DNA of 64,000 nt from NCBI RefSeq assembly GCF_022808865.1, contig NZ_JAKZLB010000001.1, forward strand, positions 806,001 to 870,000. Direction: 5' to 3'. The notes beneath the pieces were generated by a model. The model saw nothing but the letters and a program-made list of their open reading frames with translations. It did not search any database and was not told the DNA's origin. Source of the DNA: Geothrix oryzisoli. Its GTDB lineage: Bacteria; Acidobacteriota; Holophagae; Holophagales; Holophagaceae. Below are positions 37,059 through 39,273 of this stretch, piece by piece. Position 1 is the first letter of the stretch. Each line of letters begins with the position of its first letter. The position numbers were made by a program, and so were the translations under genes.

Positions 37059-37346
37059 CTACTTCTTCTTCGCGGGGGCCTTGGCGGCGGCCTTCGACTC
37101 GATCTTGGTGGCCACCTGCTTGTAGGTGACGGTCACCTTGTCGCCGACCTTGAGCGCATCCTTCCCGGCGGTGCCGGCGTCGGTGTAGAAGCGCCAGGCT
37201 TCCTTGCCGAGGTCCAGGGTGAAGCTGTCCGGAGCCACTTCCTTCACGGTGCCGGTCTTCTGATAGCTGGCGGCCGCGGCGGCCCAGCCGAGGGCGGCGC
37301 CGAGGATGGCCGTGGCCGAAAGAACGGCGAGAGGCTTCATGCGCAT
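37059..37346 (-). CDS. small secreted protein of unknown function
   Basis: A 95-aa protein with signal peptide MRMKPLAVLSATAILGAALGWAAAA. The mature part is a small beta-domain (TGTVKEVAPDSFTLDL, VGDKVTVTYKQVATKIE) like the OB-type or DUF5666-like modules that often follow lipoprotein or secretion signals, and ends in a basic Ala/Lys tail (KAAAKAPAKKK). The start at 37346 is supported by AAGGAGAG. It lies 57 nt downstream of the ispH-ubiA fusion gene on the same strand. Function unknown. Confidence 0.75.
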   Translation of the reverse strand: MRMKPLAVLSATAILGAALGWAAAAASYQKTGTVKEVAPDSFTLDLGKEAWRFYTDAGTAGKDALKVGDKVTVTYKQVATKIESKAAAKAPAKKK

Positions 37347-37403
37347 GGGGCTCTCCTTGAAAAGGTGCCCCAAGGCTAGCAGTCCCCCATGAAAGGGCAA
37401 GAA

Positions 37404-39125
37404 CTACACGATGGCCAGCAGCCCCACCAGCCAGAAACTCAGATCCACGCTCAACTCGAAGCGATGCCTGCCGGCGGTGAACCGCTCGTGGAACAGCCAG
37501 AGGTACAGCATCGGGTAGGCGGCGCAGACGACCAGGACCAGGGCCACGGCCAGGGGGTGCCCATGCTGGCGGTTGTCGAAGGTGAGCCAGAGGGTGCCGG
37601 CCAGCAGGGTTCCCAGGAGCCCCACCAGCACCGCCTTGGTGGCCGACTTGCCCATGAGGATCGGCAGGGTCTCCTTCCCGACGATCTGGTCGTTCTGCAT
37701 GTCCCGGATCTCGTAGATCACCGTGCGGACGAAGGCCAGGACACCCACCAGGAAGACGGCTGCGAAGGCGCGGAGATCCCAGCCCCGGCCCTCCTGCCAG
37801 ACCGGCATGATGACGGCCACGGTGGCCAGCGCCAGGGATACCACCACATCCTTGGAACCCGGGATGTTCCGCAGGCTGAAGGTCCGGCCGCCCAGCGGGA
37901 AGCGCCGCTTGTAGCCCGCGCCCACCACGGAAGCGGCCAGGGCCACGGCCAGAGCCTTCCCGCCCAGGCTGGCGGCCAGCCCGAGGGTGATTGCCAGGGC
38001 CGTTCCCCCCGCCGACAGCAGGATGCGGCGGTTGCGCTCCAGGAAGCGCGCCCGGGCGGGCCCCTTGGCACCGAGGCCCAGGGGATCCAGGAAGGGGGTC
38101 AGCAGGTACATGGCCAGCACGTAGGTTCCCGCCAGCAGCGGGTAGCGCCAACCCAGGGGCAGGCCCAGCCACTTGTGCACACCGAGGGTCATGAAGGCGG
38201 CGCCCATGGCCAGCAGCGAGGAGCTGCCGAAGGCCGCCTGCAGAAAATTGCGCCAGCGGCTTGGACCGTCGCCCAGCTGCTCCAGGACGTCCACCACCTC
38301 ATCCACCAGCCAGGTGGGCGTGGAGGCGCCGGCCAGCACGCCCACGGTCTCGCGGCCGGTGAAGGCCCCGAGGTCCAGCTCCGCGGCGGTTTCCACATAC
38401 TGGACGGGCTTGCCGTAGTGGTGGGCCAGCTCGGCCAGGTGCTTGGTGTTGCTGGAGGCCTTGCCGCCCACGACGATGACGGTGTCCACGGTGCGGGCCA
38501 GGGATTTGGCCTCGTCCTGGCGCATCCAGGTGTCCTCGCAGATGGTGTTCTCGAAGACGGCATCCCCGGCGCGGGTGCGGATGTAGTCGGTGATGGCGTG
38601 GTAGTCCTTCACGGTGAAGGTGGTCTGCGCCACCACCAGCACCTTCTTGAGCTGCTCGTCCGTCAGGGCCTCGGCCTCGGCCATGTTCGCGACGATGGCC
38701 GAGCCGCTGTCCGCGAAGCTGCGGTGCGCCACGCTCTCCGCATGGCCGTGGCTGCCCAGGATCACGGTGAAGTAGCCCTTGGGGCTCCATTTCTTGATCT
38801 TGTGGTGGACCTTCGCCACCTCGGGACAGGTGGCGTTGACGATCTTCACCTCGCCCCGGGCCTGCCGCTCCTTGAGGCCGCGCAGATCCTGGATGGGGAT
38901 GCCATGGGCCCGGATGACCACCGTGCCGTTCTGCACCTGGTCCGGTGCCGCCGCCACGGCCACGCCCCGCTTGCCGATGAGCTCGAGCGCTTGAGGATTG
39001 TGGATGAGCGGTCCCAGCGTCTGCACGGTGCGGCCATCGTTGCGCACCGAGGCCTCCAGCACCGCGTCCATGGCGCGCTTGACGCCCCAGCAGAAGCCCG
39101 CGGTCTTGGCGACGATCACTTTCAT
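37404..39125 (-). CDS. ispH: IspH (HMBPP reductase) fused to a UbiA-like membrane domain
   Basis: A 573-aa protein of two parts. Residues 1-285 are a complete IspH: cluster cysteines C12 (GFCWG), C100 (NATCPE), C196 (NTICEDT), HGIP, AQTTF, SSNTKHL and GASTPTW; it makes IPP and DMAPP from HMBPP. Residues about 300-573 are a polytopic domain with roughly eight hydrophobic segments resembling UbiA prenyltransferases: YKRRFPL..., NIPGSKDVVV and the second Asp motif EIRDMQNDQIVGKETLP (D475, D479). The first NDxxD motif is not clear (LTPFLDPLGLG at that place). No stop or frameshift separates the parts; the reading frame is continuous, so this seems a true fusion. Confidence 0.85.
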   Translation of the reverse strand: MKVIVAKTAGFCWGVKRAMDAVLEASVRNDGRTVQTLGPLIHNPQALELIGKRGVAVAAAPDQVQNGTVVIRAHGIPIQDLRGLKERQARGEVKIVNATCPEVAKVHHKIKKWSPKGYFTVILGSHGHAESVAHRSFADSGSAIVANMAEAEALTDEQLKKVLVVAQTTFTVKDYHAITDYIRTRAGDAVFENTICEDTWMRQDEAKSLARTVDTVIVVGGKASSNTKHLAELAHHYGKPVQYVETAAELDLGAFTGRETVGVLAGASTPTWLVDEVVDVLEQLGDGPSRWRNFLQAAFGSSSLLAMGAAFMTLGVHKWLGLPLGWRYPLLAGTYVLAMYLLTPFLDPLGLGAKGPARARFLERNRRILLSAGGTALAITLGLAASLGGKALAVALAASVVGAGYKRRFPLGGRTFSLRNIPGSKDVVVSLALATVAVIMPVWQEGRGWDLRAFAAVFLVGVLAFVRTVIYEIRDMQNDQIVGKETLPILMGKSATKAVLVGLLGTLLAGTLWLTFDNRQHGHPLAVALVLVVCAAYPMLYLWLFHERFTAGRHRFELSVDLSFWLVGLLAIV

Positions 39126-39273
39126 GGGCGCTCCACAATTCTGACTGGTTTAGTCGGATTACCTATCATAGCGCCCGGGCCACGCCTACGCACCGTTCGA
39201 GATGAGGAAAGAGACCGATCGGGTACCCTGGCTTCCACCACGCCACCTTCACCTTCTCCTGGGACCCTTCCCC

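Follow-up and report, generated by a model that had tools for sequence, protein, structure and literature searches.

The window, a stretch of 64,000 nucleotides from the genome of the soil/sediment bacterium Geothrix oryzisoli (3.23 Mb, 98% complete), carries on its minus strand a fusion gene of 573 codons, with the ATG at 39125 and the stop codon at 37404-37406. The protein was encoded in a single frame of 573 amino acids, in which an IspH domain (residues 1-284) was followed by a nine-helix domain of the UbiA fold (residues ~288-573). An open frame on the plus strand across the same bases was rejected as a high-GC shadow. The features of the locus are listed in Table 1.

Table 1. Position and basis of the features at the fusion locus (window coordinates)
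Feature	Position	Strand	Basis or remark
Palindrome CCGACT-AAACC-AGTCAG	39141..39157	-	Between a TATGAT box (39165-39170, -10-like) and the ATG
IspH (LytB, HMBPP reductase) domain, residues 1-284	38274..39125	-	[4Fe-4S] ligands Cys12, Cys100, Cys196
UbiA-fold membrane domain, residues ~288-573, nine predicted helices	37407..38264	-	PF01040, AlphaFold, Z 18.4
Degenerate first Asp motif T343-P-F-L-D347, end of TM2	38085..38099	-	Motif table of 68 fused proteins and secondary structure
IPGSKD loop, residues 421-426, between helices 4 and 5	37848..37865	-	Near-invariant in the fused family
Second Asp motif RDMQNDQIVGKETLP, residues 474-488, D475-x-x-x-D479	37662..37706	-	Aligns with MqnP-like and solved UbiAs

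The genes around the fusion were a PEP-carboxylase-like gene, a gene for a small DUF5666-like protein, an SDR gene and a DNA polymerase I-like gene, none of which was informative. The DUF5666-like protein (37059-37400, minus strand; under the Pfam cut-off) begins a few bases past the fusion stop and is possibly co-transcribed with it. No Rfam match was obtained near the fusion gene.

The frame and the IspH half

The long frame might be the product of a sequencing or assembly error that merged two neighbouring genes, but the probability of this was negligible. The frame was without internal stops in the 32 fusion loci read codon by codon, and the intact fusion was also found in about 100 open frames from isolates and MAGs of two phyla. 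The same single frame recurred across the surveyed loci, and an artefact was rejected. The preliminary description had considered that a stop codon might have been lost through a sequencing error, and no such frame error was found in the related genomes. The closest named relatives were Geothrix species, with 86-94% identity across the entire fusion protein.

The Pfam family LYTB (PF02401) matched residues 3-281 with an E value of 3.3e-78 and 263.1 bits (cut-off 24.5), and TIGR00216 gave 249.7 bits (cut-off 187.85). All the IspH cysteines and substrate residues had been placed in residues 1-285 from the sequence, and this was borne out by the 68 fused proteins, in which C12, C100, C196, H42, H74, H128, E130, T169, S224, N226 and S268 were invariant. 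Furthermore, the top Foldseek matches of the full-length model were crystal structures of IspH, namely 3dnf (E 4.4e-19) and also 3t0g. No second ispH was detected in the G. oryzisoli genome, and the fusion was the sole ispH in the five Nitrospinota genomes tested as well. The intact motifs and the absence of another ispH suggest that the N-terminal half is the only HMBPP reductase of the cell. Since the fusion is the only ispH, it must supply IPP and DMAPP if the MEP pathway is their sole source.

The palindrome upstream of the gene was kept in most Holophagaceae loci, with TATGATGAATAACCTGACCAACCCGGTCAGGATT as its typical form, and was not seen upstream of the Nitrospinota fusions. The pattern YGACTN5AGTCR occurred once in the window, where 0.18 occurrences were expected. 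Genome-wide, its 21 matches were about equal to the 18 of the reversed control, and no clear copy was found before the Rrf2 genes of the genome. We take the palindrome to resemble the IscR/Rrf2 type-1 operator. It is possibly an operator of this type, which would suit an Fe-S enzyme.

Fold and motifs of the UbiA half

The Pfam family UbiA (PF01040) matched residues 370-545 with 44.1 bits, compared with a gathering cut-off of 34.2. The match began at profile position 70, and the N-terminal third of the domain lay outside it. The same family was matched by 53 of 54 fused relatives (E up to 0.01). AlphaFold models of the fusion with its 68 fused relatives (pLDDT 86, pTM 0.76) and of the membrane domain alone (pLDDT 87, pTM 0.87) both showed the all-helical UbiA fold with nine transmembrane helices. 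The membrane-domain model aligned with Aeropyrum pernix UbiA (4od5) over 250 residues, with a Z score of 18.4 and an rmsd of 3.3. For AfUbiA (4tq3) the Z score was 16.3, and the Foldseek E value of the full model was 6e-5. The soluble prenyl synthases, which have the superfold in common, reached Z scores of 15.7 and below, lower than that for 4od5. The remains of the first motif closed helix 2 and the second motif closed helix 6, as in UbiA.

These results supported the preliminary description, in which a membrane-anchored IspH was joined to a polytopic UbiA-like domain carrying the second UbiA Asp motif. Both Pfam domains exceeded their cut-offs, the models matched IspH and UbiA crystal structures, and the nine helices and the second motif were located. 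An unrelated membrane fold had also been envisaged there, but the model matched UbiA structures instead.

The canonical first motif N-D-x-x-D-x-x-x-D was replaced by TPFLDPLGL, in which the Asn had become Thr and only D347 remained. The earlier statement that there was no clear first NDxxD motif was therefore right as to the canonical motif; however, the degenerate TPFLD was present, and relatives had N-x-x-x-D at the same gap-free columns. The equivalence of this segment to motif I of canonical UbiA is one of position at the end of TM2 and of gap-free family columns, not of a residue-level structural alignment. In a profile-profile comparison with the MqnP alignment, motif II was aligned and motif I was not. 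The second motif conformed to DxxxD as D475-MQN-D479. Compared with ApUbiA (4od5) and AfUbiA (4tq3), the window protein had the same fold, the same motif positions after helices 2 and 6 and an intact second motif, but their NDxxDxxxD first motif was reduced to TPFLD.

The motif residues varied widely over the fused family. The members with all four residues (N-x-x-x-D and D-x-x-x-D) were one Nitrospinota group, L037, L048, L092 and L093. In nearly all Holophagaceae, the Asn of motif I was Thr, Ser or Ala. D347 was Ser in one relative of the class and Arg or Asn in a second Nitrospinota clade. With the motif columns excluded from tree building, 21 of 37 representatives kept N343, which had changed at least 4 times, and 24 of 37 kept D347, which had changed at least 5 times. 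The minimum number of changes was 3 for D475 and 1 for D479, and all four metal residues were retained in 12 of 37. In two Acidobacteriota loci (L089 and L090, from genomes G035 and G022), motif II read FDIWIIQSNGLVGKEALP; both Asp residues were gone and IspH was intact. These two appear to be the clearest cases of a pseudo-prenyltransferase. As a control, N60, D64, D68, D184 and D188 of the stand-alone MqnP-like UbiA were retained in all 13 aligned class members. A second, divergent IspH-UbiA copy was present in a genome of the genus Geothrix (L099:1154-2701; genome G276, contig 73). It had lost nearly all the motif residues and might be a paralogue or contamination.

Thr or Ser can ligate Mg2+ in some cases. 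By motif position, N102 of UBIAD1, whose motifs are N102TYYDFSKG and D236MESD, corresponds to N343 of the fused family, where the window protein and relatives have Thr or Ser. The N102S substitution lowered the affinity for GGpp and blunted the activity (PMC9314443). Given the loss of the Asn and this effect of N102S, catalysis is expected to be weakened, which does not prove it absent. The Asp at +8 of motif I is also missing from the active UBIAD1, so its absence here is uninformative.

Distribution, selection and gene neighbourhood

The UbiA-domain profile was found in 38 of 297 Acidobacteriota genomes. These comprised all 27 Holophagaceae, all five members of another family in this class, four genomes spread over three families, and two genomes of yet another Acidobacteriota family, whose matches were weak and partial and may not belong to a fusion. 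The single genome sampled from a third family of the class had a stand-alone ispH and no match to the profile. In the Nitrospinota, 19 of 24 genomes had the profile. The survey of the architecture, which the preliminary description had proposed, thus recovered the fusion throughout the Holophagaceae and the profile in most Nitrospinota. In the tree of IspH domains, 32 fused sequences lay on one side of a branch and ten stand-alone ones on the other (SH-aLRT 82, with a sparse outgroup), which is consistent with one origin of the fusion and is not proof of it.

Fusions of this kind have been reported previously. Rao, O'Dowd, Li, Wang and Oldfield (Chem Sci 2015) described 47 IspH-UbiA "Rosetta stone" fusions, mainly from Desulfobacterales, whose UbiA part was filed as PT_UbiA_5 with two DXXXD repeats (PMC4746011). 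They proposed either that the UbiA part receives its substrate from IspH or that it serves to localise IspH; the full protein could not be expressed (PMC4746011). Hence the architecture and the idea of coupling, both published in 2015 (PMC4746011), are not new, and the fusion by itself is no news. No later functional work on IspH-UbiA was found in the open-access literature. Like these hybrids, the window protein is a single polypeptide with a UbiA-like domain attached to the C terminus of IspH. The order of IspH then UbiA, the nine-helix domain and a separate UbiA/MenA elsewhere in the genome were also the same. However, the hosts there were sulfate reducers only, whereas here they were Acidobacteriota (Holophagaceae) and Nitrospinota. 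Moreover, the two DXXXD repeats are a description of the hybrids and no strict criterion, and the window protein has only the second, with T-P-F-L-D as the first. IspH is also the N-terminal half of a long fusion in the IspH-RPS1 proteins of Clostridium and others (PMC4746011), but there the partner is the soluble ribosomal protein S1, which is unrelated to the C-terminal half studied here. What is new here is that the fusion occurs in every Holophagaceae genome surveyed and in Nitrospinota, and that the UbiA active site has decayed repeatedly although the domain stays under selection. New in addition is the O-methyltransferase neighbour of the fusion in Nitrospinota, present only with intact motifs (see below).

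IspH had a mean identity of 89.0% over 21 shared genomes; the fused UbiA had 75.6% and the MqnP-like protein 81.6%. The dN/dS values of the fused UbiA were about 0.09-0.33 in pairs of the window genome with others of its genus. In the same genomes, the IspH half had values of 0.05-0.19 and the MqnP-like UbiA values of 0.05-0.22. The fused domain is under purifying selection and is constrained somewhat less than MqnP. Among 54 members, the near-invariant residues (domain numbering) were G115, Y118, L131, I134, P135, S137, K138, P154, D188, D192, E198, P201, G205 and Y250, mostly located in the IPGSKD loop and motif II and facing the opening of the UbiA cavity. This pattern suggests a retained ligand site.

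The UbiA half might be a membrane anchor or folding partner only, with the remaining motif as an evolutionary leftover. The fused domain was retained in L089 and L090, which have lost motif II, and in L099, which has lost most of both motifs, and the UbiA half had a mean dN about 2.5-fold higher than the IspH half, as would suit an anchor. However, within Holophagaceae D479 was invariant, D475 nearly so and the IPGSKD residues likewise, none of which a simple anchor would need, and dN/dS was well below 1. The retention of motif II and the IPGSKD loop under purifying selection argues against a mere anchor, and we considered this explanation unlikely.

An O-methyltransferase gene (Methyltransf_2; nearest NCBIfam of the BchU/CrtF type) was found directly downstream of the fusion in six of ten Nitrospinota loci with intact motifs, namely L056 (6774-7787), L057 (6767-7753), L058, L108, L109 and L111. 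It was not found beside the fusion in the intact-motif loci L054, L055, L107 and L110, nor in any of the eight Nitrospinota loci without motif I, each with at least 1.4 kb downstream. The association is one contrast between two clades and does not represent independent events. Where the UbiA motifs are intact, it suggests a prenylation step with methylation after it.

This neighbour, together with the UbiA fold, the intact motif II, the purifying selection and the published view of the fusion as a functional Rosetta stone (PMC4746011), would be in agreement with a working bifunctional enzyme, in which IspH makes IPP and DMAPP and the UbiA half prenylates a lipid acceptor, as Rao et al. proposed. 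However, the Geothrix genome had no match to the Nitrospinota methyltransferase, the Asn of motif I was missing in nearly all Holophagaceae, and motif residues had repeatedly gone elsewhere while the domain stayed. The loss of this Asn and the repeated losses in relatives argue against an ordinary prenyltransferase. For Geothrix, the bifunctional enzyme was judged rather unlikely, and was placed ahead of the mere anchor. If the UbiA domain is a working enzyme, there is a new prenylated lipid to discover in Geothrix and Nitrospinota.

Possible role of the fused UbiA half

The preliminary description had offered coupling to prenylation and mere anchoring as the two possibilities. Neither extreme was supported, with motif II and the IPGSKD loop retained on one side and the Asn of motif I lost on the other. 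We tentatively favour a membrane-tethered IspH in Geothrix whose UbiA half binds a ligand and is catalytically weak, and we rank this reading first. The IspH half, with its [4Fe-4S] cluster, would make IPP and DMAPP and be kept on the cytoplasmic side of the membrane by the UbiA-fold half. For Geothrix, motif II (D475 and D479), D347 and the IPGSKD loop of the UbiA half probably still serve to bind a prenyl diphosphate, and its transfer chemistry is probably weak, altered or lost because the Asn of motif I is gone. The main use of such a protein would be to place precursor production beside the synthesis of membrane prenyl lipids; possibly IspH also responds to prenyl-diphosphate levels through the UbiA half. 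In the Nitrospinota with intact motifs, the UbiA half and the adjoining O-methyltransferase probably act together, the former as a working prenyltransferase. Against the favoured reading, motif II hardly varies among Holophagaceae, as it also might if catalysis were retained.

A further possibility, which we regard as doubtful, is that the UbiA domain might be a built-in prenyl-diphosphate sensor, which would use its remaining motif to bind pathway end products and would feed back on IspH, the final enzyme of the MEP pathway. By analogy, and with as little confidence, such a protein might be a bacterial covalent counterpart of UBIAD1-HMGCR, descended from a prenyltransferase that lost motif I. 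In vertebrates, the GGpp sensor UBIAD1 is bound to the rate-limiting enzyme of the mevalonate pathway (PMC9314443), and in both systems a UbiA-fold protein is tied to an enzyme of isoprenoid-precursor synthesis. However, the fusion is covalent and belongs to the MEP pathway, and any regulation of IspH by the UbiA half is hypothetical. Moreover, the membrane-domain model matched UBIAD1 (8djk_B) with a Z score of 14.4, no higher than the soluble prenyl synthases, and the likeness is an analogy only. If the UbiA half is a binding or anchoring domain, the family offers a natural series, from an intact to an empty active site, of a prenyltransferase that has come to partner its own substrate-supplying enzyme, and membrane-level feedback on the MEP pathway would then be open to direct test.

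Five further UbiA-family matches were found in the genome, including MqnP-like and heme O synthase-like proteins. A role of the fusion as the sole quinone prenyltransferase was rejected as unlikely, since the MqnP-like UbiA and four more matches of the family are present. In addition, about 3.4 kb past the window end (L004:301-2340; genome C1:873360-874121), a Flavodoxin_2/NQO-like quinone-reductase domain and a MenA-like UbiA were encoded in one frame.
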